This document shows positions 33,026 to 50,401 of a stretch of 64,000 nt of DNA, one piece after another. Source of the DNA: Nocardioides ochotonae (GTDB taxonomy: Bacteria > Actinomycetota > Actinomycetes > Propionibacteriales > Nocardioidaceae); the NCBI RefSeq assembly GCF_011420305.2, contig NZ_CP061769.1:2281001-2345000 (forward strand). Direction: 5' to 3'. The position numbers were made by a program, and so were the translations under genes. The first letter of the stretch is position 1; each line of letters begins with the position of its first letter. Below the pieces are notes generated by a model. That model did no database searches. It saw nothing but the letters and a program-made list of their open reading frames with translations, and was not told where the DNA came from.

Positions 33026-34174
33026 CTAGTGAGCGCGGCGCAGGGTCACGACGGTGATCTCAGGCGCGGCGCCGGTGCGCACCGGCGGCCCCGAGGTGCC
33101 GAAGCCCCGCGAGGTCACGACCGTGACCCCGTCCACCTCGTCGACGCCGGCCAGGGTCGGCTGCTGCAGCGCCACCAGCCAGCCGAAGGGCCACAGCTGA
33201 CCTCCGTGGGTGTGCCCGGACAGCTGGAGGTCCACCCCTGCGTCGGCGACCAGCTGGCGCGGCTCGTGCGCGACCAGCACCGTGAAGCCGCCCGGGTCGG
33301 CCCCGGCCAGCGCGGCGTCCGGGTCCGGCGCGAGGTCGCCGGTGCCCGTCTCGTCGTGGATGCCCGCGATGCTGATCTCGTCGCCGCCCCGGGTGAGCAC
33401 GACCCGCTCGTTGCGCAGCACGGTGATGCCCAGCTCCTCCCAGCGCTCGAGGTAGGCCGCGGCGTCGCCGGTCTCCATCTCGTGGTTGCCCGAGACAGCG
33501 ACCACCCCGAGCGGGGCGTCGAGGTTGGCCAGCGGCGCCAGGTCCGGTCCGGTGTACCGCTCGCGACCGTCGACGAGGTCGCCGGCGAGCACGACCAGGT
33601 CGGGGTCCTCGGCGTTCACCATCTCGACCGCCTGCTCCACCCAGGCCCGTCCGCGCACCGCCCCGACATGCAGGTCGGTGAGCAGCACGACCCGGGTGCC
33701 GTCCCAGCCCGGCGGCAGCGCCGGGTCCACCACCTCGTAGGAGGTGACGTGGGGGCGCTGGGCGATGACGGCGCCCGCGGCGACCACCGCGACCGTGCCC
33801 AGCACCACCGCGGGTGTCCCCCACCGGAGCAGTTGCGTCCCGGCTTCGGGGCCGCGCGCGAGGCTCATCACCAGCACGAGGACGGCGAGCACCGCGCAGC
33901 CGAGGGTGAGGTACCAGGCGAGCGCGAACCAGGCCAGGCCCAGCCACACCAGCGGACGCCACGGCGCCGGGTCGACGGTGCGGTAGGCGAGGTTGGCGGC
34001 AACGCACAGCAGCGCTCCCCCGCCGAGCACCACCAACGATGCCCGGCGTGCCCACACCGGCCAGCCGGTGACCACCGCGAGCCGGCGGTGCAGCCAGCGC
34101 AACCAGCCCGCCGCCAGGGCCGCCAGGACCAGCAGGCCCAGGACCCGGGCGACGTCGACCGCCAGGTCGGACAC
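33026..34174 (-). CDS. Membrane-anchored metallophosphoesterase
   Basis: 382 residues. The N-terminal ~135 residues hold about four hydrophobic helices. The C-terminal part is a calcineurin-like phosphoesterase with DLHVGA, GDLVDG, GNHE and GHTHGGQ, so both metal sites look complete. Such proteins in other bacteria act on lipid or nucleotide phosphates; the substrate is not evident here. Start GTG at 34174. It lies between pdxS and pdxT with short gaps, so it is probably cotranscribed with them. Confidence 0.88.
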
Positions 34175-34200
34175 GGCCTGCCGGTCCGCTCAGCTGCCGA

Positions 34201-35112
<912 letters not shown>

Positions 35113-35153
35113 GCAGCGATCGTAGGACCCCGGCGCACCCTGCGTCGTCGGTC

Positions 35154-35774
35154 TCAGCCGGCGGCGGCCTCGGCCAGGGCCTGCTTGCGGACCACCCAGA
35201 TCCGCTGACCGACGGTGATCGTGCTGGCCACGGCGAGGAACCACAGGGCGGCGTACATCAGCCACGGCAGGTCGAAGATCGCCGAGAGACCGGTCATCAC
35301 CAGGATCGCGACCAGGCGGTCGGCGCGCTCGGCGATGCCGACCTTGACGTCGTAGCCGAGGGTCTCACCGCGCGAGCGGGCGTAGGAGGTCACCGCGCCC
35401 ATGAGCAGGCACACCAGGGACAGCACGAGGTAGAGCCGGCTGGGCTCCTCCCAGGCGAAGTACAGCGCGAGGCCGATGAAGATCGCACCGTCGGCGATCC
35501 GGTCCAGGGTGGAGTCCCAGAAGGCACCGAACTTGCTGACCCGGCCGGTCGAGCGGGCCATGGTGCCGTCGATGAGGTCGCTGAACACGAAGGCGGTGAT
35601 CACCAGGACGCCGGTGAGCAGCTTGCCCTGCGGGAAGAACACCAGCGCACCGGCGCTGACGCCGAGGGTGCCGACCAGCGTGACCGCGTCCGGGCTCACC
35701 CCCATCCGGACGAGGAGGGCGGCGATCGGCGCGGCGACGATCTTGGTCCAGAAAGCGCGGAAGTGATCCATCAT
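35154..35774 (-). CDS. pgsA: CDP-alcohol phosphatidyltransferase, probable phosphatidylinositol phosphate synthase
   Basis: 206 residues, about six membrane helices. The CDP-alcohol motif is complete: Asp66, Asp69-Gly70, Ala73-Arg74, Gly83, Asp87 and Asp91 (in [10 protein letters not shown] and [12 protein letters not shown]). In actinobacteria the enzyme next to the HIT gene and thrS makes phosphatidylinositol phosphate from CDP-diacylglycerol and inositol phosphate. The specific substrate is inferred from this context and from the inositol-phosphatase-like neighbour. Confidence 0.88.
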
Positions 35775-35786
35775 GGCGCGAGCAGG

Positions 35787-36587
35787 CTACCCCTCGGTGA
35801 GCGCGGCGCAGACCTCGGCGACCGCGGTGGGCACGCCGGCGACGTACCAACGCTTGCCGGCGGCCTCGACGTGCCGGGTCTCCCCGCCCAGGGAGCGGAT
35901 GATCGCGGCGCCCGGGAGCTCGTCCCACGGCGGCACCGAGTGCTGGCACACGACGTGCAGCATCCCGCTCGCGACGGCCATCGCGTCCATCGAGCCCGAG
36001 CCGAGCATCCGCAGCGTGGCGGCCCTGCGGGCGGCGCGAGCGAAGGCGTCCTCGACGGGGGTGCCCAGGAACGGCGGGTGCAGGTAGGTCGCCAGGCACG
36101 ACTGCGCCAGCGGGCGGTCGACCAGCGGCGCCAGCGGCACGCCGTCGGCCGTCGCCGGGAGGCCCGGCCCGCCGACGTACGTCGTCCCGCTCGCAGGGTG
36201 GTGCACGGCGCCGAGGAGCAGCTCGTCGCCGTCGCGCAGCGCGAGGGCGGAGCACCACCAGTCCAGGCCGGCGACGAAGTTGTAGGTGCCATCGACCGGG
36301 TCGATCACCCAGGTGCGCCCGCTGGTGCCGTCGTGGGCGGAGCCCTCCTCGCCGAGGACACCGTCGGCGGGTCGCTCGGCGGCGAGGGTGTCGACGATCG
36401 CCCGCTCGGCCGCATGGTCGGCGGCGGTGACCACGTCGGAGATCGACGTCTTCTGCTCGGCATGCAGTCCCCCGGCCCGCATCTGCCGGGCCAGCTGGCC
36501 CCCTGCGGTCACCAGTCGTACGGCGAGCTCAGCGTCGCGGCACAGGTCGCCGACGAGGTCGCCGGCCGGGTCGCCGGCCCCGCTCAC
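35787..36587 (-). CDS. Inositol monophosphatase-family phosphatase
   Basis: 266 residues from the GTG at 36587, which overlaps the HIT gene stop as GTGA. Metal-binding motifs are visible: the LGEEGS loop (Glu80, Glu81), DPVDGT at 96-101, and GSGSMDAMAVASG later. It could release inositol from inositol phosphate beside the phosphatidylinositol-phosphate synthase, or act on another sugar or histidinol phosphate. The frame stays open upstream inside the HIT gene and was not used. Confidence 0.88.
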   Translation of the reverse strand: MSGAGDPAGDLVGDLCRDAELAVRLVTAGGQLARQMRAGGLHAEQKTSISDVVTAADHAAERAIVDTLAAERPADGVLGEEGSAHDGTSGRTWVIDPVDGTYNFVAGLDWWCSALALRDGDELLLGAVHHPASGTTYVGGPGLPATADGVPLAPLVDRPLAQSCLATYLHPPFLGTPVEDAFARAARRAATLRMLGSGSMDAMAVASGMLHVVCQHSVPPWDELPGAAIIRSLGGETRHVEAAGKRWYVAGVPTAVAEVCAALTEG

Positions 36588-37135
36588 GCCTCGTCCCAGG
36601 CCTCGGCGAGCAGGTCGCGGGTGTCGGCGAGCAGCTGCGGCACGGTCTTGGTGCGCCCGATGACCGGCATGAAGTTCTGGTCGCCGGCCCAGCGCGGGAC
36701 GACGTGCTGGTGCAGGTGCGCGGCGATGCCGGCGCCGGCGATGTGGCCCTGGTTCATGCCGATGTTGAAACCCTCGGCGCCCGAGCGGGAGCGGAGCACC
36801 GTCATCGCGCGCTTGGTCAGCTCGCCGATCTCCACCATCTCCGCAGGGGTGGTCTGGGTGTAGTCGGCGATGTGGCGGTAGGGGCAGACCATCAGGTGAC
36901 CCGGCGCGTAGGGGTAGAGGTTGAGCACCACGAACGAGTGCTCGCCGCGGTGCACGATCAGCCCGTCGGCGTCCTCCCCACGGGGGATCCGGCAGAACGG
37001 GCACTCGCCGGCCGAGGCGTCGCTCGGCTTGTTCTCGCCGCGGATGTAGGCCATCCGGTGCGGCGTCCAGAGCCGCTCCAGGTCATCGGGTCGGCCGATC
37101 CCGTCCTGGGTCAGGGTCTCCTCGGACTGGCTCAT
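36584..37135 (-). CDS. HIT-family nucleotide phosphorylase/hydrolase
   Basis: 183 residues with the histidine triad HLHQH at 140-144 and NIGMNQGHIAGAGI before it. Cys45 and Cys48 (CPFC) may bind zinc. Proteins of this type downstream of thrS in actinobacteria resemble Rv2613c, an Ap4A phosphorylase; the reaction here is inferred. It precedes the phosphatase and pgsA genes and overlaps the former. Confidence 0.9.
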   Translation of the reverse strand: MSQSEETLTQDGIGRPDDLERLWTPHRMAYIRGENKPSDASAGECPFCRIPRGEDADGLIVHRGEHSFVVLNLYPYAPGHLMVCPYRHIADYTQTTPAEMVEIGELTKRAMTVLRSRSGAEGFNIGMNQGHIAGAGIAAHLHQHVVPRWAGDQNFMPVIGRTKTVPQLLADTRDLLAEAWDEA

Positions 37136-37193
37136 GACACCCGATCCTAGGGCGGTGCGCCGACACCGGCGCGGCCGGTACGGCCTGCTCGGA

Positions 37194-38150
37194 TCAGGGC
37201 TTGCCGAACCACGGCAGCGCGTTGACGCCGGGGCAGGTGACGTTCTGGTCGCGGTTGAGCGCGACCCACTGGCTGAGCACCGACGGGCCGCCCTGGATGG
37301 AGTGCGCCTTGCCGCAGCGGTTCAGCGCCTCGGCCCGCGACGTCTCCCCCGCAGCCCGCCACTCGGGCACCCCGAGGCTGAAGTCACCGACGATGAGCTC
37401 CCACAGGTGGGCCGTCGAGTAGACCCCGATCTTGTAGCCCGCCTCGCGGTAGGCGCGCGCGGCGCCCTGCACGACCGCGGCGTTCGCGCGGCGATCCGGG
37501 CTCCACTCCCAGATGGTCACCGGCTCGACGTCGAGCCACACGGCGGGGACCTTGAGCTTGGCCCGCTTCATCGTGGTGAGGTTGGCCCGGCTCTGCTCGT
37601 AGCCGACGTTGCGCAGCGCGCCGATCCGGGTGCCCCCGGCGTACGGCCCGGCGTCGCGGTGCTTGGCCAGCTGCGCCCGCGAGGGATAGCTGACCACCGC
37701 GTAGGCCCCGAGGAGCATCCCGCGCTGGCGCACCCAGCGGACCTGCCAGGGCAGGCAGGGGTTGCGGGTGAAGCCGGGGCCGTTGGTCAGCCCGAGGATC
37801 ACGTAGCGGGCCTGCGGCAGCGGCATCGGCTGGCCCTGGGTGGGACGCGCGGGGATGCCCAGGCCCTTGCGGCACTGCGGCCAGCCGGCGTCGGCCCCCA
37901 GCAGCGGGCGACGTGCCTTGGACTCCTTGACCGCCTCCTTCTCCGCGCGCCCCGCGAGGGACTCGAGCTCGTCCGGATCGGGCCGGTTCGCATCACCCGG
38001 GGCGCCCCGGCCGCGGTCGGAGCCGGAGTCCTGGGACGGTGCCTTGGAGGCCGCCGCGTCGCGCTCCGCCGGCTCGTCGCCGTCCCTCCCACAGCTGAGG
38101 AGGAGCACCGTCGCCATGACGAGCACGAGCATCGAGCGGAGCACCGACAT
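37194..38150 (-). CDS. Lipoprotein with a GH25/DUF1906-like TIM-barrel domain
   Basis: 318 residues. A lipobox-like LLLSC (Cys20) follows a short hydrophobic signal, then a charged linker of about 60 residues. The domain begins GADAGWPQC. It includes YVILGLTNGPGFTRNP, AVWLDVEP with paired acids, IGVYST, and a C-terminal SQWVALN, all reminiscent of lysozyme-like GH25/DUF1906 folds. It may bind or cut cell-wall glycan, but that is inference. It lies between thrS and the HIT gene. Confidence 0.75.
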   Translation of the reverse strand: MSVLRSMLVLVMATVLLLSCGRDGDEPAERDAAASKAPSQDSGSDRGRGAPGDANRPDPDELESLAGRAEKEAVKESKARRPLLGADAGWPQCRKGLGIPARPTQGQPMPLPQARYVILGLTNGPGFTRNPCLPWQVRWVRQRGMLLGAYAVVSYPSRAQLAKHRDAGPYAGGTRIGALRNVGYEQSRANLTTMKRAKLKVPAVWLDVEPVTIWEWSPDRRANAAVVQGAARAYREAGYKIGVYSTAHLWELIVGDFSLGVPEWRAAGETSRAEALNRCGKAHSIQGGPSVLSQWVALNRDQNVTCPGVNALPWFGKP

Positions 38151-38341
38151 GGCCTCCAGCGTAGGTCGCGCACCGAAGGTTCTGCGGGGGTCGGGAGGCC
38201 TCCTCGCTCCGGCTGAGCGGGGCGCTGCCGGGCCGCCGATTGGTCACGAACGGCACCCCAACGGCCCAGATGATTGTCGTTGGGGACCAAACGTCGACGC
38301 GATGTGGCGGTTGGGGCCGGTGTGGTCGCACCGAGAAGAAC

Positions 38342-38393
38342 GCCTCGGGTGGCGCCTTTCCGCGCAACTGCGCCGAAAAGCACCACCCGAGGC
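38342..38393 (-). terminator. Hairpin downstream of thrS
   Basis: Outer arms gcctcgggtgg (38342-38352) and complement (38383-38393) enclose a partly paired inner section. It is followed toward thrS by a purine repeat (gaggca units, 38391-38416). The remaining part of the 270-base gap (38151-38340) shows no gene or RNA I can recognise. Confidence 0.6.
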
Positions 38394-38420
38394 AGAGGCA
38401 GAGCCAGAGGCAGAGGCCGA

Positions 38421-40406
38421 TCAGACCTGCTCGCGCGCCTCCACGGCAGCCGTGATCCGGGCGATCGCCTCGGCGACCGGGACCCCGTTGTCCTGGCGGC
38501 CGTCGCGGTAGCGGAAGGACACCGCGCCCGCCTCGACGTCGTCGTCGCCGGCGATCAGCATGAACGGCACCTTCTGCAGCTGGGCGTTGCGGATCTTCTT
38601 CTGCATCCGGTCGTCGCTCAGGTCGACCTCGGCGCGCAGCCCGGCGGCCTTGAGCTGGGCCACGATGTCCTTGAGGTAGTCGTCGTGGCGCTCGGCGATC
38701 GGGATCGCCACGGCCTGGACCGGCGCGAGCCAGGGCGGGAAGGCACCGGCGTAGTGCTCGACCAGTACGCCGATGAACCGCTCGATCGAGCCGAACTTCG
38801 CCGAGTGGATCATCACCGGCTCCTGGCGCGAGCCGTCGGCGGCCTGGTAGGCGAGCTCGAAGCGGTGCGGCTGGTTGAAGTCGTACTGCACCGTGCCCAT
38901 CTGCCAGGTGCGCCCGATCGCGTCCTTGGCCTGGACCGAGATCTTGGGGCCGTAGAAGGCCGCGCCGCCCGGATCCGGGACCAGCTCGAGACCGGTCTCG
39001 GTGGCGACGTCCTCGAGCACCTTGGTCGCGACCGCCCACTGCTCCTCGGTGCCGATGAACTTGTCGCTCTCGGGGTCGCGGGTGGACAGCTCGAGGTAGA
39101 AGTCGTCGAGGCCGAAGTCGCGCAGCACGCTCAGCATGAAGCTGAGCAGGTGCTTGACCTCCTCGGGCGCCTGCTCGGGGGTGCAGTAGGAGTGCGAGTC
39201 GTCCTGGGCGAAGCCGCGCACCCGGGTCAGGCCGTGGATCACGCCGGACTTCTCGTAGCGGTAGACCGAGCCGAACTCGAAGAGCCGCAGCGGCAGCTCG
39301 CGGTAGGAGCGCCCGCGGCTCTTGTAGATCAGGTTGTGCATCGGGCAGTTCATCGCCTTGAGCTGGTAGTTCGACCCCTCGAACTCCATCGGCGGGAACA
39401 TCGTGTCGGCGTAGTGCGGCAGGTGCCCCGAGGTGTGGAACAGCCCGTCCTTGGAGATGTGCGGGGTGCCGACGTACTCGAAGCCCTCCTCGATGTGGCG
39501 GGCCCGGACGTAGTCCTCCATGACCCGCTTGAGCACACCGCCCTTGGGGTGGAAGACCGGGAGGCCCGAGCCCAGCTCGTCGGGGAAGCTGAACAGGTCG
39601 AGGTCGCGACCGAGCTTGCGGTGGTCGCGGCGCTCGGCCTCCTCGATGCGGTGCAGATGCTCCTCGAGGGCCTCCTTGGACTCCCACGCGGTGCCGTAGA
39701 TGCGCTGCAGCATCTTGTTCTTCTCGTCGCCTCGCCAGTACGCCGCGGCGGTGCGCATCAGCTTGAAGGCCGGGATCCGCTTGGTGGTCGGCAGGTGCGG
39801 GCCGCGGCACAGGTCGGACCAGGCGACCTCGCCCTTGCGGTTGATGTTGTCGTAGATCGTCAGCTCGCCCGCGCCGACCTCGGCAGAGGCGCCCTCGGCG
39901 GCGCTCTCCGCGTTGCCCGACCCCTTGAGACCGATCAGCTCGACCTTGTAGGGCTCTTCGGCGAGCTCCACGAGGGCGTCGGCGTCGGTGGTGACCCGGC
40001 GCTCGAAGCGCTGGTTCTCCTTGATGATCTTGCGCATCGCGGACTCGATCTTGACCAGGTCCTCGGGCACGAACGGGGTCTCGACGTCGAAGTCGTAGTA
40101 GAACCCGTCGGTCACCGGCGGACCGATGCCGAGCTTGGCGTCCGGGTAGAGCTGCTGCACCGCCTGCGCCAGCACGTGGGCGGTGGAGTGACGCAGGATG
40201 TCGCGCCCGTCCTTGGAGGACATCTCGACGCCCTCGACGACGTCGCCGTCGACCAGCTCGTAGGAGAGGTCCTTCAGCTCGCCGTTGACCCGGGCGGCGA
40301 TGACCTCCGGGGTCTCGGAGAACAGCTGCCAGGCCTTGGTGCCCGCCGTGACCGTCATGTCCTCACGCGCGTCGGCGCGGACGAGGACGATCTTCTTGTC
40401 GGACAC
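38421..40406 (-). CDS. thrS: Threonyl-tRNA synthetase
   Basis: 661 residues from the GTG at 40406, which has AGGAG seven bases upstream. It has an N-terminal TGS domain, an editing domain with the zinc-like [11 protein letters not shown], class II motif 2 (FRYEKSGV-like region [13 protein letters not shown]), zinc-site MNCPMHN, and a C-terminal anticodon-binding domain. The open frame to 40556 is not homologous. It leads the HIT-pgsA-pdx group. Confidence 0.97.
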
Positions 40407-40456
40407 GTGGGTGCTCCTTGGGGTCGGGACGGCGCGGTTCGACCGCGTGACGGTGG

Positions 40457-40520
40457 TGCGGGGTGGGGCGCCGAAGGGCGTCCCTCGCGATCGTATCGAG
40501 CAGTCGCCCCGCACCCCGCA
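40457..40520 (-). promoter_or_regulatory. Inverted repeat in the thrS leader/promoter
   Basis: Arms 40457-40470 (tgcggggtggggcg) and 40505-40520 (cgccccgcaccccgca) pair with one or two bulged bases. A TACGAT -10-like element lies between them on the minus strand, so the repeat flanks the likely thrS promoter. It could be an operator or a leader structure. No T-box features are seen. Confidence 0.4.
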
Positions 40521-40599
40521 TCGGTTTCGGCCCCGGCGCCCGGGCCGCGTCCCCACTTCCGATGATGCGGGCGAGACCGTCGCCGTTCAGGCTGCCGAC

Positions 40600-41727
40600 A
40601 TGCATGCCGTGCCGTGCCGCGTCGCCCTCCTGCTGCTCGCGATCGCAGTACCGGTGCTGGGCCTTCCTGCGCTCCTTCCCCCGAGCGCGCAGGCCGCGCA
40701 CGTGCGCCCCGAAGCCGTGGCGAGCTGGGGCGTCGACGGACCGGTGCTCGCGACAGCGGTCGCGGGCAACGTCGTGGTCGTCGGGGGAAGCTTCTCCGCA
40801 GCGGTGGGCCCCACCGGGGAACGGGTGCCCCGCGCCAACCTCGCGGCGTTCTCGCTGCGCACCGGCGCATTGCTGACCGGGTGGCGCGCCGACACCAACG
40901 GCGCCGTCCGCGCCCTCACCACCGACGGTCGGTCGCTGTGGGTCGGGGGCTCCTTCACCCGCATCGGCGGGGTCGCCCGGGCGCGCGCGGCCAAGGTGTG
41001 GGCGCACTGGGGCGTGGTGGACAAGGCGTTCCGCGCCAACGCCAACGCGGCCGTGCTGGCGCTCGAGCTCTCCGGCAAGGCGCTCTTCCTGGGCGGCGAC
41101 TTCACCTCGGTGGGCGGCGCGGCCCTCCCCCGGCTCGCACGGGTACGCGCCGCCACCGGCCGGCCGGTGCCGAAGTTCCGCCCGTCGGTGAACCGCGCCG
41201 TCCAGGGCATCGCGGTCAGCGGGAACCGCGTCTACCTGGCCGGGCAGTTCACCGCCCTGGGCGGACAGGCCCGCCGCGGCGTGGGTGTGGTCGCCAAGGC
41301 CACCGGCGTGCTGCGCGGGCCGGCGTACGCCGCGTCGGTCCACCCGTCCTTCGGCGTCGAGGTCTCCTCCGACGGCAGCCGCCTCCTCGTCGCCGCCGGC
41401 GAGTACGCCAACGCGCTGGTCGCCTGGGACGCGGCGTCCGGCGCGCAGCTGTTCCGCCACACCGCCATGGGCGACGTGCAGGCGCTCGACGTCCAGGGCG
41501 ACCACGTCTACTTCGGATTCCACGAGGGGTTTCGTGGGGACACCACCCTCAAGGTGCTCGCCGCCCGGGTCAGCACCGGCGCCCTGGACCCCGACTTCCG
41601 CCCGCCCGTCGACGGGTTCTGGGGGATCCACGCCATCACGGCCACCCCCGATGCGCTGGTGCTCGGCGGTGAGTTCTCCCGGGTGGGTGGCGTCACGGCA
41701 CGCGGCTGGGCGCGGTTCCGGCCCTGA
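40600..41727 (+). CDS. Secreted beta-propeller protein (delta-60-like repeats)
   Basis: 375 residues from the ATG at 40600. A signal peptide (VALLLLAIAVPVLGLPALLPPSAQA) is followed by a repetitive domain. Four clear copies of a GGxFTxxGG unit are visible (VGGSFTRIGG, LGGDFTSVGG, LAGQFTALGG, LGGEFSRVGG), spaced roughly every 45-50 residues. These match the beta-propeller type annotated as DUF5122/delta-60 repeats. It is probably exported to the surface, with unknown ligand. No strong ribosome site precedes the start. It is divergent from thrS. Confidence 0.8.
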   Translation: MHAVPCRVALLLLAIAVPVLGLPALLPPSAQAAHVRPEAVASWGVDGPVLATAVAGNVVVVGGSFSAAVGPTGERVPRANLAAFSLRTGALLTGWRADTNGAVRALTTDGRSLWVGGSFTRIGGVARARAAKVWAHWGVVDKAFRANANAAVLALELSGKALFLGGDFTSVGGAALPRLARVRAATGRPVPKFRPSVNRAVQGIAVSGNRVYLAGQFTALGGQARRGVGVVAKATGVLRGPAYAASVHPSFGVEVSSDGSRLLVAAGEYANALVAWDAASGAQLFRHTAMGDVQALDVQGDHVYFGFHEGFRGDTTLKVLAARVSTGALDPDFRPPVDGFWGIHAITATPDALVLGGEFSRVGGVTARGWARFRP

Positions 41728-41806
41728 GGGACCTCCTCCGCGGACGCGCAGAGCGAGACACTCCTGCACGGGCCACCACTACCGGCTGTCGACGAACCTC
41801 TTGCCC

Positions 41807-41829
41807 TCGAACGCATGTTCGACTAGGAT
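41807..41829 (+). promoter_or_regulatory. Perfect LexA (SOS) box and -10 of the HNH remnant
   Basis: TCGAACGCATGTTCGA at 41807-41822 is an exact palindromic LexA box of the actinobacterial type. It is followed at 41824-41829 by TAGGAT, a -10-like element, and a GAGG just before the ATG at 41835. SOS boxes are known ahead of 13E12/DUF222 HNH genes in mycobacteria, so this is probably the original promoter. Confidence 0.85.
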
Positions 41830-42162
41830 GAGGTATGGCCTCCCCCGAACTCCCCGACAGCGGCTCCCCCGCCGCCGTGCTGGCGTTCGTGCAGGACCAG
41901 CGGGCCGCAGCCCAGCGAGCCGAGGTCCTGGTCCTGGAGGGCGCCCTGCTGTGGGCCGCGATGCACCCGGTCTCGACCAACTCGACCGACGAGGGCTCGA
42001 CCAACGGTGGATCGAACGGCGGGTGGCTCTTCGCCGAGGTCGCGATGCCGCTCGGGGGCGAGGGGACGCCGCTCGTCGCGGAGTTCGCGCCGATGGAGCT
42101 GGGGGCCGCCCTCGGCATGTCGACCGACGCGGCCCGGGCACTGGTGGGTGCCGCACTCGAGC

Positions 42163-42678
42163 CCGGCCGCCGTGATCGCGCACCCCAACGTGGTGGCGGA
42201 GGTCCGGAAGTCGAAGGCGACCACGGCAGGCACCTACGTCCTCGACCCGACCACGGCGGGACCGTCCTCGATCCTCGGCGTGCCCGTCATCTCCACCCCG
42301 GCGGCGACCGCGGCCGTCGTGTGGGTGGTGGAACCGACAGGCGTCACGATCTTCCGCCGCGGGCCCCTCGTCGTGGACCTGGGCACGACCGGCGACAACT
42401 GGTCACACAACATCCAGTCGATCCGCGCCGAGGAGCGCGTCGGCACCGCGGTGACCCGGCCGTCGTCGCTGACGAAGCTGACCCTCTCCGGCGGCAGCCG
42501 GTCGACCGCCAAGCAAGAAACGTGGCCCGGCCCGGGGCTGTCCTCACACGTCTCCCCCTGGGCCGGGCCGCTCGGGCCTGAGGGGTTCCAGGGTCTTCCT
42601 TCGGCCCACCCGTCCCGGGACGCGGCGGCCTGCGTCCCGGGACGGCCCGCGTCGGAGCCACCCGTCCCGCGACCGTGA
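42163..42678 (+). pseudogene. Fragment resembling the C terminus of an HK97-type phage major capsid protein
   Basis: The frame from 42163 reads SPAAVIAHPNVVAEVRK, then GTYVLDPTTAGPSSILGVPV, IFRRGPLVVDLGTTGDNW and SHNIQSIRAEERVGTAV, ending TRPSSLTKLTL near 42490. That order (DP...GVPV, RRG, SHN, EERVG) is what actinophage capsid C termini show. The call is from pattern memory, not a search. Only about 109 residues remain. The frame then runs on as low-complexity sequence to 42678. There is no own start; its left edge is fused out of frame to the HNH fragment. Confidence 0.65.
42610..42645 (+). terminator. Hairpin after the capsid-like fragment
   Basis: Perfect 14-bp arms (ccgtcccgggacgc at 42610-42623 and complement at 42632-42645) around an 8-base loop. 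It is probably the terminator that came with the capsid gene, and would isolate the small ORF downstream from the SOS promoter. Confidence 0.7.
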
Positions 42679-42727
42679 TTACGCGGTCAGCCAGCGCGGA
42701 TACCGCCTCTCAGTTACGGTCGGCCCC

Positions 42728-42922
42728 ATGTCGGAGAGAGTGAAACGCGGGCTCGGCCTCGTGGTGATTGGGCTCCTCGGCGTCATACTCATCGCCGCAA
42801 CCCGCCAGATGGAGGCGGACGGCGAGACTCCGCCCACGCTGCTCGTCGTCGCTGGAGCGGCAGGCGGATGGGTTGGCATCTACGGCCTAGTCCTCATCGC
42901 CCTTGGGTTGCTGCGCGACTGA
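42728..42922 (+). CDS. Small two-helix membrane protein, unknown
   Basis: 64 residues with two hydrophobic helices (GLGLVVIGLLGVILIAA and about 39-61, VVAGAAGGWVGIYGLVLIAL) separated by an acidic loop. It lies inside the foreign segment between the capsid-like fragment and the HNH C terminus. A promoter or ribosome site is not obvious. It could be phage-derived or a chance survivor. I do not recognise it. Confidence 0.45.
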   Translation: MSERVKRGLGLVVIGLLGVILIAATRQMEADGETPPTLLVVAGAAGGWVGIYGLVLIALGLLRD

Positions 42923-43135
42923 GTTGCTGACCGCCAGGGCTGGGTAGTTAACCCCGGAATTAGGAACCTGGCGCCCTTGTGCCGGCCACATCATCGGGCC
43001 AAGACCCACACCGGCTGGCGCTACGACAAGACCGACGCCGCCACCTATCTCTGGCGATCGCCCCACGGGTTGCACCTGATCAAGGACCGCGGCACCACTG
43101 CGCTCCTCAGCGCACACCCGCCGGACGTCTAGGGA

Positions 43136-43633
43136 TCAGCGCGGGGTGAGCACCCGGCGTACGAACGTGTCGACATTGGCGCACAGCCGTTCGACGCGCT
43201 GCTCGGGGGTGAGCGTCTCGTGCGGCTGGGCGCGGTCGGGGCGCTTGATGCCGCGGGCGTAGAGCGAGCAGGCCAGGTCGGCGCAGAGGTAGGTGCCGAC
43301 GGTGTTGCCGGCGCGTCCGGCAGCGCCGGCGCGGGGCGCGACCATCAGCGCCATGTCGGTGCTGGAGTGGGTGGTGAGGCAGAACGCGCACATGTTCTTG
43401 CGCCCGCCGCGCCCGGCACCGTTGCTGATCCGCAGCACCAGCCCGACCGGGCCGCTGTCGCCCGGCACGACCAGGTAGGCGCTGTCGGGGGCGCCGGCGT
43501 CACGCCAGCCGAGGAAGTCCAGCTGCTCCCACCGCGACGGCGCGATCGCCTTGGGCAGCGGCAGCCGGGTGGCCTCGCCCTTGGTGCAGTTGACGAACGA
43601 ACCGCGGATCTCCTGGGCGGTGAGCGGTTGCAT
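43136..43633 (-). CDS. FBP-domain protein (EF-G-binding zinc finger, FusB-like C-terminal domain)
   Basis: 165 residues. A four-cysteine treble-clef-like site is formed by Cys82 and Cys85 (MCAFCLTTH) and Cys117 and Cys122 (YLCADLACSLYARG). This is the FBP domain, named after the fusidic-acid resistance protein FusB, which binds EF-G and frees stalled ribosomes. The FusB N-terminal helical domain is replaced here by about 70 unrelated residues. The role in actinobacteria is untested. Its stop lies three bases from the HNH remnant's stop, so the two loci converge. Confidence 0.85.
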   Translation of the reverse strand: MQPLTAQEIRGSFVNCTKGEATRLPLPKAIAPSRWEQLDFLGWRDAGAPDSAYLVVPGDSGPVGLVLRISNGAGRGGRKNMCAFCLTTHSSTDMALMVAPRAGAAGRAGNTVGTYLCADLACSLYARGIKRPDRAQPHETLTPEQRVERLCANVDTFVRRVLTPR

Positions 43634-43661
43634 GAGTCCAGCCTCGCACCCGCCACGGCGC

Positions 43662-45704
43662 TCAGTCCGGGCGGGCGGTGTCCTGGCGGGCCGTTTCCTG
43701 ACCCGCGAGCAGCGCGCGGAACCGCGGCGCCAGCGTGAGCGCGTAGGTGCGGGTGATGTGGTTGGTGTCGCGGTACACCAGCGTCCTGCCCTGCACCGGC
43801 GTGCAGACGCGCTGGCGGCACACGCCGTCGCGCAGGTCGAAGAACTCGACGCCGGAGAGGTCGGCCAGCGCCGCGTGCTCGATGCGCGCGCCGCGGCGCG
43901 CGGTGACCAGGCACTCCGAGACCCGGCCGGTCTCCACCAGGCAGGACGGCGGGTTCACCTTGGCGGACGGCAGGCTGGCGACCATCACCACCGCGATCCC
44001 GGCGTCGGTGAACCGCTCCACGGTGCGGCGCAGGCCCTCGACCAGCAGCGGCCGCGAGTCGTGGGCGTCGTGGAGGTCGCCGCTGTCGCGGTCGATCACC
44101 CGGAGCCCGTCGCTGGCCATCCCCAGCACGACGAGCTCGGGATCGGCGGCGATCACCTCCGTGATGATCGCGGCGCGGAAGTCGTCGCACTCCTCGAACT
44201 CGCGGCCGAGCGCCCCGTCGAACCTGGTGACGTCGGCGATCGGGCAGGCGCTCTTCGACCACGCCCACAGCCGCCATCCCTCCGCCTTCGCCGCGACGTC
44301 CAGACCGGGGAAGACCTGGACCGCGTGGCTGTCGCCGAGCAGCACGACGTCCCGCTGACCCGCCGGGTCGCCGAAGCCGCACGCGCCGAGATCCTCGAGC
44401 GCACGCTCCTCATAGCCCAGGTCGCAACCGCGCTGGCGCATCGAGAACACGTCCTCCGCCGCGACCGCGGGGTTCGGGGTGAGCGCCACCGTGCGCCCGT
44501 CGCGCAGCTCCACGACGCCGTCGGTCTGTGCCGAGGCCAGCACCGTCACCGGTACGGCGACCAGCGCGACGAGCGCCCCACCGAAGGCGATCGAGCGCCA
44601 CGGCCGGACGGCCAGCACCCGCGCCCGGCGCACCGGCTGCTCGACCAGCACGTAGGAGCCCCACGCGGCGAGCAGCGAGAGCGCGACGGCGAGCACCCGC
44701 CACGGCCAGGAGTCGCCGCCGACGGCGTACGGGAGGATCACGAGCACCGGCCAGTGCCACAGGTACCAGGAGTACGACAGGTCCCCGAGCCACTGCAGCG
44801 GACGCACCGACAGGGCGCGGCCCAGCAGGGTCGCCTGCCCACCGGCGCCGGTGCCAGCGGCGATCAGCGCGACCGCGGCCAGCGACGGGAGCAGCGCGAG
44901 GAAGCCGGGGTAGGCGTACCCGCCGGCGCCGCTCTCCTGCAGCGCGACCAGCGCCACGGCGTACCCGACCAGGCCGAGGAGCCCGAGGGCCGCACAGGTA
45001 CGCCGACCGAGGCGGAGCAACGGCACCGCGGCGGCCAGCAGCGCGCCGAGGCCCAGCTGCCAGGCCCGCGCCGGCGTGCCGAAGAACGCGTAGGGCTGGC
45101 TGACCCCGGTCTGGTGCAGGCACCAGGCGAAGGACGCCACGACCACGAGCGCGAAGAGCAGCAGGTACGCCGTGCGCAGGTGCCGGCGCAGCCCCGCGCG
45201 GGCCACCAGCACGCCGAGGCCCACCACCAGGAGCGGCCACACGACGTAGAACTGCTCCTCCACGCCGAGGGACCAGAAGTGCAGCACCGGACTGGAGGTG
45301 CGGTCCTGGGCGAGGTAGTCGGTCTCCTGCTGGGCGAAGCGCCAGTTGGCCGAGAAGAGCGCGGACCAGCCGATGTCGTGGGCGACCGTGCGGCGGTCGA
45401 GGACCGGCATCCACACCGCGGCGGCCAGGCCGGTCGCCACCAGCGCCAGGGTCGAGGCCGGCAACAGGCGGCGGGCGCGCCGCGCCCAGAACCCGCGCAG
45501 CGAGACCGTGCCGGTGCGGCCGTGCTCGGCCAGCAGCAGGCCGGTGATGAGGAAGCCCGAGAGCACGAAGAACAGGTCGACGCCCACGAAACCGCCGCTG
45601 ATGCCGGGCATCCCGGCGTGGTAGGCCACCACCGCGAGGACGGCGAGGGCGCGCAGGCCCTGGATGTCGCCGCGGTGGGTGGTCGGCGCGGAGGCCTGGC
45701 TCAC
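43662..45704 (-). CDS. OafA/YrhL-type membrane O-acyltransferase fused to an SGNH domain
   Basis: 680 residues from the GTG at 45704. The N-terminal ~370 residues form the acyltransferase-3 membrane domain: DIQGLRALAVLAVVAYHAG with the catalytic-type His, GFVGVDLFFVLSGFLITG, and FWARRARRLLPA. The C-terminal third is an extracytoplasmic SGNH-hydrolase domain starting at LLGDSHAVQVFPG and ending near DTNHIT. Such enzymes O-acetylate cell-surface polymers or antibiotics. The frame is open to 45803 with an ATG there, so the start is uncertain. It is a paralogue of the gene at 60423-62552. Confidence 0.88.
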   Translation of the reverse strand: MSQASAPTTHRGDIQGLRALAVLAVVAYHAGMPGISGGFVGVDLFFVLSGFLITGLLLAEHGRTGTVSLRGFWARRARRLLPASTLALVATGLAAAVWMPVLDRRTVAHDIGWSALFSANWRFAQQETDYLAQDRTSSPVLHFWSLGVEEQFYVVWPLLVVGLGVLVARAGLRRHLRTAYLLLFALVVVASFAWCLHQTGVSQPYAFFGTPARAWQLGLGALLAAAVPLLRLGRRTCAALGLLGLVGYAVALVALQESGAGGYAYPGFLALLPSLAAVALIAAGTGAGGQATLLGRALSVRPLQWLGDLSYSWYLWHWPVLVILPYAVGGDSWPWRVLAVALSLLAAWGSYVLVEQPVRRARVLAVRPWRSIAFGGALVALVAVPVTVLASAQTDGVVELRDGRTVALTPNPAVAAEDVFSMRQRGCDLGYEERALEDLGACGFGDPAGQRDVVLLGDSHAVQVFPGLDVAAKAEGWRLWAWSKSACPIADVTRFDGALGREFEECDDFRAAIITEVIAADPELVVLGMASDGLRVIDRDSGDLHDAHDSRPLLVEGLRRTVERFTDAGIAVVMVASLPSAKVNPPSCLVETGRVSECLVTARRGARIEHAALADLSGVEFFDLRDGVCRQRVCTPVQGRTLVYRDTNHITRTYALTLAPRFRALLAGQETARQDTARPD

Positions 45705-45821
45705 GTCGTTCGTCCGTTCGTCCCGTTGTCGATCGATGACCAGCGGCGTGGCCCCCGGACCGCACCAGAGTGCGGCTCCCCGGGTCCCCGCGGGCGTCGC
45801 CACGCCGGACAGTGACGTCCC

Positions 45822-46016
45822 TCAGCGACGCCAGCCGGTGCGCGCAATGAGCCAGCCGAGGACCGCGGGCGGGGTGCTGCGCACGACGAGCGCCGCCTGC
45901 GGGGGCACGATCGCGGTACACCGGTCCGCCTCGATCGCGTCGGCGCCGCGTCGAGCGATCGAGGTCGTCGAGCCGGGCACGCCCGTGACCACGACCCGCC
46001 GGTTCCTGGCGATCAT
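45822..46016 (-). CDS. Doubtful small ORF
   Basis: 64 codons from an ATG, basic, with no domain I recognise and no clear ribosome site. It is the only reasonable ORF in the 408-base gap 45705-46112. That gap also shows a short tcccc...gggga hairpin at 46068-46083 that may end the hemerythrin transcript. It may be non-coding. Confidence 0.25.
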   Translation of the reverse strand: MIARNRRVVVTGVPGSTTSIARRGADAIEADRCTAIVPPQAALVVRSTPPAVLGWLIARTGWRR

Positions 46017-46112
46017 GGATTCATCGTGGTGCTGGCCCCCACGGCCTGCACGCCGAACGCCCGGAGATCCCCTCCGGTGGGGACCGCCGGTATGGACCGC
46101 GGGGCGGGCGGG

Positions 46113-46613
46113 TCAGGCGATGACGGCGTCCACGGCCTTCTTCAGCGCGCTCGGCTGGGACGGGCGGCGCGGCGCCCTCTCCCGGGCCTGGGTCATCTCG
46201 GCACCGATCTCCTGCAGGACCTTGCGCCCCAGGGCCTCCCGCACCTGCGGGAACCACTCCTGCTCCTCCTCCTCGATGTGGTGGCGCACGTTCTCGATGA
46301 GGACGGTGGTCTTGGCGGTGAAGCGCTCGTCGGTGGGCTGCATCCCCGCCAGCTCCATCACGAGCACGTCGGCGACGTGGTGCTCCTCGTAGGACTCCAG
46401 CACGTCGTCCTCGAGCTCCGGGACGAGCTCGCGGACGCGGGGGTACATCACCTCGTTCTCGATGTAGGTGTGCACCGTCAGCAGCTCGATGATCCGGTCC
46501 ACCAGGCTGCCCTTGGTCTTGTACGCCGCCTCGCCGGCGGCCTCGAAGTCGCGGAAGGTCTTCAGGATCAGCTTGTGGTCGTCCTTGAGCATCACGATGG
46601 CGTCAGTGGACAC
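46113..46613 (-). CDS. Hemerythrin-domain (HHE) protein
   Basis: 166 residues forming a helical bundle with a di-iron ligand set: His13, His48 with Glu52 (HTYIENEVMYP), His78/79 (EEHHVADV) and His111/112 with nearby Glu (VRHHIEEEEQEWFP). Such proteins sense or scavenge oxygen, NO or peroxide. I chose the GTG at 46613 because AGGAG is nine bases upstream. The frame is open to 46667 without family similarity. It overlaps the upstream gene by 11 bases and is probably its operon partner. Confidence 0.9.
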   Translation of the reverse strand: MSTDAIVMLKDDHKLILKTFRDFEAAGEAAYKTKGSLVDRIIELLTVHTYIENEVMYPRVRELVPELEDDVLESYEEHHVADVLVMELAGMQPTDERFTAKTTVLIENVRHHIEEEEQEWFPQVREALGRKVLQEIGAEMTQARERAPRRPSQPSALKKAVDAVIA

Positions 46614-47292
46614 GGGGAGACTCCTCGGTGGTGGGTGACGGGTCGTCCGCGCGCGAGGCCCGCGCACGGCGATAGGCGGGCTCGCGCAGCCGTCGTACGA
46701 CGTCGTACTGGCGCAGGCCCGGGATCCGGTGACGCACCGGGTCGAAGGAGACCGGCCCGTCGTCGCTGGTGTCGGGGACCAGCCGCAGCTCCGCGAACGG
46801 GTGCCAGGGTCCCCTCGCGTGTGCCCAGCGCAGCTCGTAGCTCTCGGGAGCCGGACCGCCCTGGAGCCCCAGCAGCACCGGCCCGGTCGGGCTGTCGTAG
46901 GGCAGCAGCGTGGTCATCGGGCGGCTGCGGGGCCGACGCCCACCGGTCAGCAGGAAGCGGGTGAGCCGTCCCCAGCCGGTGCTGGCGAACAGCAGGTCGC
47001 CGGGACCGTCGGTGGTCGGCACCCGCAGCGCCAGGCCGTGGACGTCGGGGAGCCGGGAGGGCAGGCCGATGGCGCGCGAGAGGCGTACGACGACCTCGTC
47101 CTCCCCCGGCTCGTCGATCCACGCGACGCCGCTCGGCTCGGCGGACCCGGTGCGGTGGAGCCGTCCGGCGCGCAGGTCGCCCTCCGGGTGCAGCGGCTTG
47201 CGGGCGGAGCGCACCGCCGCCAGCGCGCTGGTGCCGGCCGCGAGCAGCACGCCGCCGGCGCGAGCGGCGCGGGTGAGCGGGTGCGGGTCCAT
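46603..47292 (-). CDS. Uncharacterised protein, faintly catalase-like
   Basis: 229 residues from the ATG at 47292, which has AGGAGG just upstream. The middle (LSRAIGLPSRLPDVHGLALRV, DLLFASTGWGRL, MTTLLPYDSPTGPVLLGL) recalls small actinobacterial proteins sometimes labelled phosphodiesterase or catalase-related. I see no heme or metal motif that would settle this. An N-terminal hydrophobic stretch (AGGVLLAAGTSALAAV) may anchor it. It is coupled to the hemerythrin gene. Confidence 0.7.
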   Translation of the reverse strand: MDPHPLTRAARAGGVLLAAGTSALAAVRSARKPLHPEGDLRAGRLHRTGSAEPSGVAWIDEPGEDEVVVRLSRAIGLPSRLPDVHGLALRVPTTDGPGDLLFASTGWGRLTRFLLTGGRRPRSRPMTTLLPYDSPTGPVLLGLQGGPAPESYELRWAHARGPWHPFAELRLVPDTSDDGPVSFDPVRHRIPGLRQYDVVRRLREPAYRRARASRADDPSPTTEESPRVH

Positions 47293-47380
47293 GGGCCTCC
47301 TGTCCGCGCGACTGGTACCCCGCGCCTCGCGCGGCGACACCACTCCGACGGGTGAGGCGCGTGCACGGCGCCGGCCGGGG

Positions 47381-48025
47381 CTACGGCTCGATCGAGCCCT
47401 CGCCCCGCAGCCCGTGGTCGACACCCCACAAGATCGCCTGCGGGCGACTCGTCGCGCCGATCTTGCGGTACGCCGTGCGGATGTAGGTCTTGATCGTGTT
47501 GATGCTGAGGAAGGACCGTGCGGCGATCTCCTCGTTGGTGAGGCCGTGGCAGATCATGCCGAGGATCTCGCCCTCGCGGGGGCTGAGGCCCTGCTCGCGC
47601 CCGGGCCAGTCGGCCATCGTGGCCTCGTCGGGCTTGGGGTCACCGTCGGCTTTCATCGTGAACGAGTCGCTGCCCTCGGCCTGGTGCACCTCGACCAGCC
47701 GCTCCGCCAGCTCCTCCCCCGACACACCCTTGCCGATCCAGCCGACCGCGCCGTGCTCGTGCGCGACCTCGGGCGGGTAGGTCTCCCAGCTGTAGACGAC
47801 GATCTTCGCCTTGGGGTTGGCCGTGACCACCGCACGCAGCTTCTCGTCCTTGTCGGGGAGGCGTCCGAAGGTGTCGAACAAGATCACGTCGGCCTCGGGC
47901 ACGAAGTCGGTACCGGTGGACACCTCCACCACCTCGACCAGGTCGGAGTGCGGGGCCAGCAGGGCCACCAGGCCGCGCAACACCAGCTGGTAGTCGTTCG
48001 ACAGCACCACCTTGACAGGCTTCAT
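47381..48025 (-). CDS. LuxR/NarL-type response regulator with an atypical receiver
   Basis: 214 residues. The receiver has the phospho-acceptor position Asp51 (VILFDTFG), Ser79 and Lys99. The first acid of the usual DD pair is Asn10 (VVLSNDYQLVLRG), which may alter phosphorylation. The C-terminal LuxR HTH is clear (LSPREGEILGMICHGLTNEEIAA and INTIKTYIRTAYRKIGATSRPQAI). No sensor kinase is nearby. Its ATG overlaps the stop of the DUF6544-like gene (ATGA), so it is the third gene of an operon starting at 49531. Confidence 0.88.
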   Translation of the reverse strand: MKPVKVVLSNDYQLVLRGLVALLAPHSDLVEVVEVSTGTDFVPEADVILFDTFGRLPDKDEKLRAVVTANPKAKIVVYSWETYPPEVAHEHGAVGWIGKGVSGEELAERLVEVHQAEGSDSFTMKADGDPKPDEATMADWPGREQGLSPREGEILGMICHGLTNEEIAARSFLSINTIKTYIRTAYRKIGATSRPQAILWGVDHGLRGEGSIEP

Positions 48026-48924
48026 GTGGATGCTCTTCTCTGCGGGCTCGTCGCCCGGCGCCTCTCGCTGGTTCGTCCGCCCCGCTCGCTGATGTCGCCT
48101 CCCACCGTTTCACACCCCTGGTGGTGAGGGGGCGCGGCCGGGCTCTCAGGGGACGCCGGGGACGGCACCCGCAGGGACCCGACGTCGAAGCGGAAGAACT
48201 CACCCGCGGCCCAGCGGTCGGTCCCGTGGTGCCAGCCGACCGTGCCGCGGGCCGGGATCGTGAGACCGCCGAACGTGCGGTGCTCGGTGATCTCGCCGCC
48301 GAAGGGGTGCCACCCCCAGCTGCCGGTGTCGTCGGGGTCGCCCCAGCGCTCGAGCACGAAGGAGCGGAGCAGGCCGTCGTCGTCGAGGGTGCAGCGGACG
48401 TCGACCGGGTTGTCCCCGAGACGGTGGTGGACGGTGACGTGGGTGTCGTCCTCGGCCGACCACCGCACGCCGTAGCGCGGCAGCAGTGCGGTCGGGACCC
48501 ACACCCCCTCCGCACCGCCACGCCCCGCAGCGCTGCGGGAGACGTCGGGGCCCTCGCCCTGCGCCACGGTGAGCAGTCCCGCGAGCCGCCAGCGCATCGC
48601 CCCCGCGCCGTCGACGTACTGATCGGAGCCGGCGATCAGGCCGCCCACCCGCGCCCCCCACACGAAGCCGACGTGTGGGTCGAGCACCTCCACGGCGCGG
48701 AACGGCAGCCACCGCGGGCCCAGCCGCAGGCTGCCGCGCATGGTCAGCGTGGCACCGCGCGCGAGCGGTGTCCCGGGCGCGATCGCGGCGCTCAGGTGGC
48801 GGCGTACCGGCTCGGGCAGACCGTCGAGCTCCTCGGCCCCGAACACCTCCGGGGGCGCGGGCGTGAGGAGCCGTGCCTGCCACGCGGCGAGATTGCCGCC
48901 CGTCTCAGTCCTGCGGGTCCGCAC
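48022..48924 (-). CDS. DUF6544/DUF6920-like protein
   Basis: 300 residues. Features typical of this family are LPEPVRRHLSAAIAPG at the N terminus, then RLGPRWLPFRAVEVLDP and GFVWGARVGG. Further on are PTALLPRYGVRW and WGDPDDTGSWGWHPFGGEI. No catalytic motif is known for the family. The C-terminal 40 residues are a basic, low-complexity tail. It overlaps the upstream gene by 20 bases and the response regulator by four. Confidence 0.7.
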   Translation of the reverse strand: MRTRRTETGGNLAAWQARLLTPAPPEVFGAEELDGLPEPVRRHLSAAIAPGTPLARGATLTMRGSLRLGPRWLPFRAVEVLDPHVGFVWGARVGGLIAGSDQYVDGAGAMRWRLAGLLTVAQGEGPDVSRSAAGRGGAEGVWVPTALLPRYGVRWSAEDDTHVTVHHRLGDNPVDVRCTLDDDGLLRSFVLERWGDPDDTGSWGWHPFGGEITEHRTFGGLTIPARGTVGWHHGTDRWAAGEFFRFDVGSLRVPSPASPESPAAPPHHQGCETVGGDISERGGRTSERRRATSPQRRAST

Positions 48925-49531
48925 GTCCCTGCTCCTCCCTGGCGGCCACCACCAGCCCGGCCGACCAGCCCGGCGCCCGTCCGCGGCACGGTGGCGCCAG
49001 CGCCTCGGGATGGTGCCCGCTGCGTGCCAGCAGCCAGGCGACCAGCGAGTTGGAGTTCCACATCTCCCCCGCGCCCAGCTCGTCGCGACCCCAGGTGGCG
49101 GCGGGGAAGTCCGACACCACGGCGAGCAGCCGCTCCGCCCGGAGCGGGTCCGTGCTCAGGCGCTGCGCACCGCCCACCGCCTCCTCGAGGTCGGGGATCG
49201 CGCCGCCGCGCCAGCAGCGCACCTCGTAGCGGAACAGCCGTGAGCGGCCGAGGCAGGCCAGCCCCACCGGTCCCTCGCACACCACGCCGTGCCCGGCGGC
49301 CGAGCCGCTCCACACCGGAGCCATCTCCAGCGCGTAGCGCGCCCCGGCGTACTGCACCTCGAGGGCGGAGTGGAACAACGGCGCCGGGGCGCGGTGCTCG
49401 CGCCGGGCCGCGATCGCCTCGTAGACCCGGCCGCTGGCCCGGACGACCCCGGTCCGCCCGCCGGCGCCGAGAGGCAGCCAGTACAGGTCGACGCCGGCCG
49501 CGGCGGCGTCCCGCTCGCTCTCCATGGCCAT
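48905..49531 (-). CDS. Uncharacterised protein, first gene of the response-regulator operon
   Basis: 208 residues from the ATG at 49531, preceded by GGGAGG; a second ATG is two codons in. No family recognised. The middle has YALEMAPVW and CLGRSRLFRYEVRCWRGG, and the C-terminal part NSNSLVAWLLARSG. That last segment faintly recalls papain-like (NlpC/P60-type) folds, where Asn/Ser precedes a helix, but the catalytic residues cannot be assigned. It is divergent from the DUF4389 gene across a region with DevR-like boxes. Confidence 0.7.
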   Translation of the reverse strand: MAMESERDAAAAGVDLYWLPLGAGGRTGVVRASGRVYEAIAARREHRAPAPLFHSALEVQYAGARYALEMAPVWSGSAAGHGVVCEGPVGLACLGRSRLFRYEVRCWRGGAIPDLEEAVGGAQRLSTDPLRAERLLAVVSDFPAATWGRDELGAGEMWNSNSLVAWLLARSGHHPEALAPPCRGRAPGWSAGLVVAAREEQGRADPQD

Positions 49532-49596
49532 CACCCTCCCACCGCCATTCGACCGCCAGTCCGCGCGCGCGGACAGGCGCGAACGTCCCGTTGCCG

Positions 49597-49633
49597 AGGG
49601 CAACGGTCCCGGCGTTCCTGGTCCGTTCGGCCC
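49597..49633. promoter_or_regulatory. Putative DevR/DosR-like boxes between divergent operons
   Basis: GGTCC-gttc-GGCCC at 49620-49633 has the 5-4-5 palindromic layout of DevR sites. A weaker partner agggc-aacg-gtccc is at 49597-49610, its centre 23 bases away (two helical turns). They lie 57 bases before the DUF4389 start and 64 bases or more before the 49531 start. By memory, the motif resembles the streptomycete/mycobacterial DevR consensus. Confidence 0.45.
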
Positions 49634-49690
49634 TACCCGGGTCACCGCGCGTGGACGGACCGTGGAGCGACGTCGGACGAGGAGTGCGCC

Positions 49691-50401
49691 ATGGCCGCCT
49701 ACCGCTACCCGGTCCAGGTGACCGGTGACCTCGACGAGCCGCTGAGCCGCTGGCTGTGGCTGGTGAAGTGGCTGCTGGCCATCCCGCACCTGGTCGTGCT
49801 GTTCTTCTTGTACCTGGCCTTCCTGGTGCTGAGCGTGGTCGCGTTCTTCGCGATCCTGATCACCGCGCACTACCCGCGCGGCATCTTCACCTTCAACGTC
49901 GGGGTGATGCGCTGGAGCTGGCGGGTCAGCTTCTACACCTACTCGGCGCTCGGCACCGACCGCTACCCGCCGTTCACGCTGCGCGACGTGCCCGACTACC
50001 CCGCGCACCTCGAGATCGACTACCCCGAGCGGCTCTCGCGCGGCCTGGTGCTGGTGAAGTGGTGGCTGCTGGCCATCCCCCACTACATCGTGGTCGGGCT
50101 GATCGTCTCCGGGACGTCGTACGCCACGAGCACCGCCACCGGTGAGGTGACCGCCTCGACGCCCGGGCTGTCGAGCGTCCTGGTCTTCTTCGCCGGCGTC
50201 ATCCTGCTGTTCACCGGCCGCTACCCGCAGCCGCTGTTCGACCTCGTCGTCGGCCTGAACCGATGGTCGCTGCGGGTCGCGGGGTACGCCGCGCTGATGA
50301 CCGACGTCTACCCGCCGTTCCGCCTGGACCAAGGGGGTCGTGAGGACGCGACGACTCCCGCAGCGCCTCCCCCGGGCCCGCCGCCCCCGCCGCACACCTG
50401 A
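49691..50401 (+). CDS. DUF4389-repeat membrane protein
   Basis: 236 residues with two DUF4389-like modules. Each has a W-LVKWLLAIPH type helix (about 22-45 and 121-140), a P-Y-R/P stretch, and a W-R tail (RYPPFTLRD, VYPPFRLDQ). The proline-rich C terminus is cytoplasmic or extracytoplasmic. Function unknown. Start ATG at 49691 with GAGGAG six bases upstream. It may share control with the opposite operon. Confidence 0.85.
   Translation: MAAYRYPVQVTGDLDEPLSRWLWLVKWLLAIPHLVVLFFLYLAFLVLSVVAFFAILITAHYPRGIFTFNVGVMRWSWRVSFYTYSALGTDRYPPFTLRDVPDYPAHLEIDYPERLSRGLVLVKWWLLAIPHYIVVGLIVSGTSYATSTATGEVTASTPGLSSVLVFFAGVILLFTGRYPQPLFDLVVGLNRWSLRVAGYAALMTDVYPPFRLDQGGREDATTPAAPPPGPPPPPHT

Follow-up and report, generated by a model that had tools for sequence, protein, structure and literature searches.

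How did the end of a phage capsid gene come to lie between the two ends of a single DUF222/HNH gene in Nocardioides ochotonae, and was that gene interrupted or partly replaced? We addressed these questions in a 64,000-nucleotide stretch of the chromosome (hereafter the window, to which coordinates refer unless a locus is named), taken from a genome that is assembled as one contig of 4.26 Mb and is 100% complete. On the forward strand, the locus consists of a LexA/SOS box (TCGAACGCATGTTCGA, 41807–41822), the 5′ piece of the gene from the start codon, 28 nt downstream of the box, to codon 109 (41835–42162), a foreign segment of 802 bp (42163–42964), and the 3′ piece, which by eye runs from the second half of the HNH motif to the stop codon (42965–43132). 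The two pieces were assigned by homology and the foreign segment by comparison with a sister species (genome G133). The left neighbour (40285–41727, forward strand, true start uncertain), which we take to be beta-propeller-like, and the right neighbour, a presumably FBP-like protein of 165 aa (43136–43633, reverse strand), are both syntenic in G133 and in a more distant genome, G140.

The source genome has 38 PF02720 matches that fall into at least two subfamilies, and intact members of the window copy's subfamily are ~434 aa long and carry a LexA box. Sequences homologous to the 5′ piece were found at 28 other loci of this genome, and the 3′ piece is likewise matched at 28 (L092–L094, which duplicate L029, L023, and L018, were excluded from locus counts). 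The family alignments stop exactly at 42162 in 24 of the 28 loci for the 5′ piece and begin exactly at 42965 in 25 of the 28 for the 3′ piece; the interval between the same two points is 821–851 bp in 22 own copies. Searched alone, the two pieces match no DUF222 or HNH model in a Pfam scan, the 5′ piece giving no Pfam match of any kind and the 3′ piece one PKD_6 match under its cut-off (15 vs. 25 bits). The window copy lacks the combination of a DUF222 domain and a complete HNH motif. Judging from the reading frame, its product should be a dead protein, because the frame is lost past codon 109 and the HNH motif, as read by eye, is cut between the first His and the Asn.

By eye, orphan DUF222 3′ ends (L092 2210–2354, L093 1939–2091, and L084 2030–2110) adjoin IS110-like remnants, and at L087 (2349–4014) a DUF222 5′ part with a LexA box leads through a deletion and loss of frame into a kelch-like gene. 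We considered, and rejected, a hot spot for breakpoints around nt 1144–1161 of the gene (1144 in the window; orphan 3′ pieces starting from 1153 and 1161). The IS110-like remnants lie beside the orphans and were not seen at the window junction, and we therefore claim no common cause.

What stood at this locus is indicated by the sister species. At the same position, G133 has an intact DUF222/HNH gene of 437 aa (PF02720, 38.2 bits against a cut-off of 24.4), and synteny extends on both sides, with main blocks of 87–94% identity, separated by gaps, across 34003–50000. The 5′ piece is identical to this orthologue at 268 of 307 aligned bases (87%) and the 3′ piece at 148 of 162 (91%). Over each whole piece the G133 gene is a closer match than every paralogue in the source genome, the best of which reach 78% for the 5′ piece (short stretches up to 85%) and 86% for the 3′ piece (short stretches up to 89%). 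By these alignments, the two end pieces are evidently parts of one DUF222/HNH gene with a single orthologue, as had been claimed in a preliminary description of the locus, and the gene was evidently present here before its middle was replaced. The same description had the gene “split” by the insert, and this has to be corrected: 836 bp of the G133 gene (L162 11064–11899) have no counterpart in the window, and 802 unrelated bp stand in their place. Since the interval is 836 bp in G133 and 821–851 bp in the 22 own copies, the middle of the gene was replaced rather than interrupted, and residues ~103–381 of the G133 protein are absent from the window copy. The similar lengths lost and gained (836 vs. 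802 bp) were considered as a sign of paired replacement, and this was dropped because 802 falls outside the 821–851 range of the own copies.

The mismatches to G133 number 7/7/25 at the first, second, and third codon positions in the 5′ piece and 1/3/10 in the 3′ piece, small counts from short pieces. This third-position bias is the apparent mark of protein-level selection over most of the divergence from G133, and because the differences are mostly at third positions, the loss of the gene centre looks recent. A search of G133, run without a positive control, found no capsid match. In G140, where the flanks are 83–85% identical, there is no gene, and a few tens of bases separate the neighbours. 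The right neighbour also occurs at 27 other loci in 25 genus genomes (59 searched), none with a DUF222 gene within 1.5 kb in a screen that counted SOS-type ORFs >380 aa; the left neighbour accompanies it only at the G140 locus. The placement of DUF222 loci is conserved in part: of 42 loci in genome G000, 15 have a flank in common with one of the 30 G140 loci compared (51 in total).

The foreign segment begins with a capsid fragment, as the preliminary description had recognized. The frame open from 42163 matches PF05065 with 39.4 bits (cut-off, 24.2) over profile positions 168–279 of 280, and PHROG 10, “major head protein,” with 44.9 bits. It thus corresponds to the C-terminal end, ~109 residues long, of a major capsid protein of the HK97 type (42163–42489, forward strand, by profile and alignment), and its identity to the final ~110 residues of intact capsids of 368 and 385 aa is ~46%; a full-length HK97-type capsid domain (PF05065) is not present. 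The capsid gene has the same orientation as the host gene and lies in a different frame from the 5′ piece. The capsids of genomes G020 and G103 stop at the point that corresponds to 42489; the window frame lacks a stop codon here and continues to 42678.

Two GC-rich hairpins follow on the forward strand, at 42524–42569 (14-nt arms, 93% complementary) and 42610–42645 (14-nt arms, 100% complementary). Their folding score is strong (z = −3.9), but no U-run terminator was found at either. The segment has no Rfam family match. GC-rich inverted repeats, for which no chance level was computed, also lie 3′ of the capsid genes in G020, G103, and G109. Farther along is an ORF of 64 aa (42728–42922, forward strand), membrane-like by eye and of no known family; apart from its own genome, 3 of the 215 from the genus give matches to it, which are weak (E 0.002–0.008) and probably due to chance. 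It was also considered as a satellite gene and rejected, the matches being weak and the one that adjoins a capsid gene (L142, E 0.047) lying in no convincing gene. The tail of the insert is less GC-rich (0.656; 31 of 1275 same-size pieces of the window are equally low), and the GC content of the whole insert is unremarkable (0.708; 364 of 1264 equally low).

Searches for the remains of an integration apparatus were negative. Profile scans of four translated stretches of 41835–43132 gave no integrase, tblastn with two serine integrase queries found none in the window, and, apart from the capsid fragment, the foreign segment yielded no phage gene. Att-like repeats are absent from the two junctions, which share at most a 6-bp word, a length matched by 95% of random pairs. 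The segment has neither the integrase and capsid pair nor the end repeats by which a PICI-like satellite or a phiRv1-like element would be recognized.

Such a chimera might have been produced by the assembly itself, had a phage read been joined to a gene of a repeat family. The family is multi-copy and a single genome carries the chimera, but the completeness of the one-contig assembly, the G133 order kept by the flanks and both gene pieces, and the failure to find a second copy of the insert anywhere in the source genome make an assembly or sequencing artefact very improbable. The abundance of related loci also raises the prospect that the chimera formed in another strain or another DUF222 copy and was moved here by homologous recombination at the shared ends, for which 28 other loci match the 5′ end and 28 the 3′ end. 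Against this, both ends are closest to the local G133 orthologue and not to a paralogue, identity in 60-bp steps (0.75–0.95 in the 5′ piece and 0.88–0.93 in the 3′ piece) shows no consistent step toward the junctions, and the capsid fragment occurs once in the genome. We consider an imported allele improbable.

The claim that the LexA box of the promoter is intact proved correct. The site conforms without mismatch to the SOS box of the LexA regulon, and the G133 orthologue has the same box (tcgaacgcacgttcga). At up to one mismatch the window contains two SOS sites against 0.06 expected, and 4 of 2000 random 101-bp pieces of the window come within one mismatch of the box. The second site (31469–31484, one mismatch) lies ~18 bp upstream of a gene that we take to be ruvC-like and is a natural positive control. 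Of the loci whose match to the 5′ piece spans 100 bases or more (28 among L012–L030 and L080–L091), 24 have a perfect TCGAACN4GTTCGA 27–28 nt upstream of the start codon and two more, L020 and L090, also have the box, bringing the total to 26 of 28 own relatives; L085 and L086 are without it. The SOS-type DUF222 set is an unusually large gene family with LexA boxes. To our knowledge, no function has been established for the DUF222/13E12 family, and a genome with perfect LexA boxes at 26 of 28 copies is a good test bed for it.

From the intact box, damage-driven transcription into the foreign segment is plausible. Upon damage the LexA promoter would fire, the product would be short and out of frame, and the transcript might end near the hairpins. 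Could the replaced locus then be a functional new gene, either an SOS-driven fusion or a source of the small membrane protein? The promoter box is intact and the 64-aa ORF is open, but the capsid is out of frame with the start codon, the hairpins lie between, and the 64-aa ORF has no convincing relative, all of which leaves this the least credible of the explanations considered. A broader proposal concerns the family as a whole: SOS-switched DUF222/HNH copies might be homing-like nucleases that cut DUF222 genes, making these loci break sites at which DNA damage sets off gene conversion between copies and capture of mobile DNA, and which satellites have come to use for landing. We regard this as quite improbable; were it true, the phage capsid here and the IS110-like scraps by the three orphan 3′ ends would both be captured mobile DNA.

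Where, then, did the capsid fragment come from? At the DNA level, the insert has no match among 50,697 phage records (query 42140–42990) or 72,556 plasmids. In 113 other genomes of the 215 from the genus it gives short matches only (at most 56.3 bits, spans <100 bp), which we judged to be chance in GC-rich DNA. The translated capsid fragment matched no phage record and no viral contig; alignment A1 also matched no viral contig, and among genome contigs it matched one locus, in Nocardioides silvaticus (G103). Within the genus, matches to the capsid fragment were found in 5 of 215 genomes including its own (E ≤ 1e-5), and matches to the capsid alignment in 11 of 391 genomes of the order, again including its own (E ≤ 1e-10, with at most five candidates scored per genome). 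The full G103 capsid has 330 matches among the phage records, all below 60% identity, with 30.8% the highest among the matches listed. These distant relatives (up to 31% identity among the matches listed) belong to ordinary tailed phages of Arthrobacter, Microbacterium, and others, and the donor therefore need not be a satellite.

The capsids most closely related to the fragment are encoded in small islands that have an integrase. The integrase gene, of the tyrosine type in G020 and the serine type in G109, lies within a few kb of the capsid relative. One island (L077 3984–10855), next to a gene that by eye is sigma-factor-like, contains a tyrosine-type integrase, a protein of 467 aa that fits no clear family, and a capsid. 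When 12 capsid loci (L077–L079 and L141–L149) were screened with 15 DUF222 query proteins (12 type-1 and 3 SOS-type, E ≤ 1e-6), only the N. silvaticus locus proved to have a DUF222 gene nearby.

There, one contig (L078 7553–10083) terminates with the capsid gene, an ORF of 155 aa, and a DUF222 3′ half, and a second contig (L185 1–5638) starts with 4.8 kb in which a serine integrase gene is in frame with a DUF222 5′ half. The DUF222 profile breaks at 216|220, the halves reading FCAL|LEHL, and the unsplit sequence is seen in an intact paralogue. There is no overlap between the contig ends, and a single element is therefore inferred from the matching DUF222 halves; on this evidence, N. silvaticus appears to have a DUF222 gene that is cleanly split by a satellite-like element carrying a serine integrase and a capsid gene. 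The G103 capsid, 46% identical to the window fragment, lies toward the DUF222 3′ half, in the same order and orientation as in the window. The host gene is of a different DUF222 subfamily from the window gene, and the integration point maps to residue 243–245 of 437, within the segment lost in the window. The G133 gene does not contain the 11-base attachment word of the G103 element, gccctcctgga, and integration in the window gene would thus have required a different integrase. By eye, ccctcc is a candidate shared core of the element; this 6-base word occurs twice in the G133 gene, on the opposite strand and at other positions. The symmetry score of the G103 attachment site, calculated on a joined sequence short of some core bases, was reached in 99 of 2000 shuffles, and we base no claim on it.

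The best reading of the locus, supported by the identity of the capsid and by the intact G133 orthologue, is that a phage or satellite has probably left a scar in a gene of the 13E12 type, as had been suggested. For its origin, we favour a sequence of events to which we give an even chance: the locus would be a pseudogene of a DUF222/HNH gene with an SOS box, into which an element integrated and from which two deletions removed all but a phage or satellite scrap in the centre. A satellite or prophage would have entered the gene in the N. silvaticus arrangement, with the integrase toward the 5′ half and the capsid toward the 3′ half. One deletion would have taken the integrase side of the element and nt 308 to ~730 of the gene; the other would have taken the far end of the element and nt ~735 to 1143 of the gene. 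The G103 element, with the same order and orientation and a break inside the lost segment, supports integration. Several observations oppose it, namely the lack of an integrase, att site, or junction repeats in the foreign segment, the absence of the G103 attachment word from the G133 gene, the proximity of a DUF222 gene at only 1 of the 12 capsid-relative loci, and a donor that is unsampled. Integration also needs three events (the insertion and two deletions, both reaching into the gene) against one for an illegitimate capture, in which a double-strand break in the gene, repaired by end joining or microhomology, would have lost 836 bp and gained an 802-bp fragment of infecting phage or satellite DNA in one step and with no integration.

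Such a capture, a serious if less probable alternative, would account in a single event for both sharp junctions and for the absence of att repeats and integrase. The six bases to the left of the left junction, tcgagc, encode Ser-Ser when read in the frame of the capsid, in agreement with the SSP of the G103 capsid, and the profile match begins 9 bases further left, which is compatible with a short shared word. Capture would nevertheless turn into coincidence both the shared orientation and the presence of the nearest capsid relatives in integrated islands, of which one lies within a DUF222 gene. Integration followed by deletions is favoured because such elements land in the DUF222 family in this genus and, according to the literature, in mycobacteria. 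The earlier idea that these genes serve as phage attachment sites finds an independent parallel within the genus in the N. silvaticus element, but not in the window junctions, given their 6-bp word.

For phage-related DNA within a gene of the 13E12 type there is a precedent in phiRv1 of Mycobacterium tuberculosis, a prophage-like element that lies in REP13E12 and integrates by a serine recombinase (PMC9317374). PhiRv1 and phiRv2 have been described as PICI-like, candidate PICIs being defined by integration machinery and a major capsid gene (PMC10654092). REP13E12/HNH/DUF222 sequences are among the repeats from a mobile-element screen (PMC10589994), and two further papers mention phiRv1 without bearing on the window gene (PMC3783163; PMC6379469). 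Among the matches listed in a search that left most subscription literature outside its coverage, there was no published report of the window locus or of the N. silvaticus element. Genes of the 13E12 family are part of the mycobacterial LexA regulon (PMC5005354, citing Davis 2002); what differs in the Nocardioides set is that 24 of the 28 copies in one genome have a perfect box at a nearly constant spacing, that two others also have one, and that the window copy is disrupted. The capsid relatives near integrases in G020 and G109, and in G103 with the integrase on another contig joined by inference, resemble the PICI-like elements of Mycobacterium, whereas the window keeps only ~109 capsid residues. 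Unlike phiRv1, the window segment has no integrase, att site, or element end that was found, and the centre of its host gene is deleted; direct comparison with an intact orthologue allows this scar to be placed and roughly dated. With a serine integrase and a capsid gene in a DUF222 gene, the N. silvaticus element resembles phiRv1 in REP13E12, and, having a readable integration point, it extends this relation to another genus.
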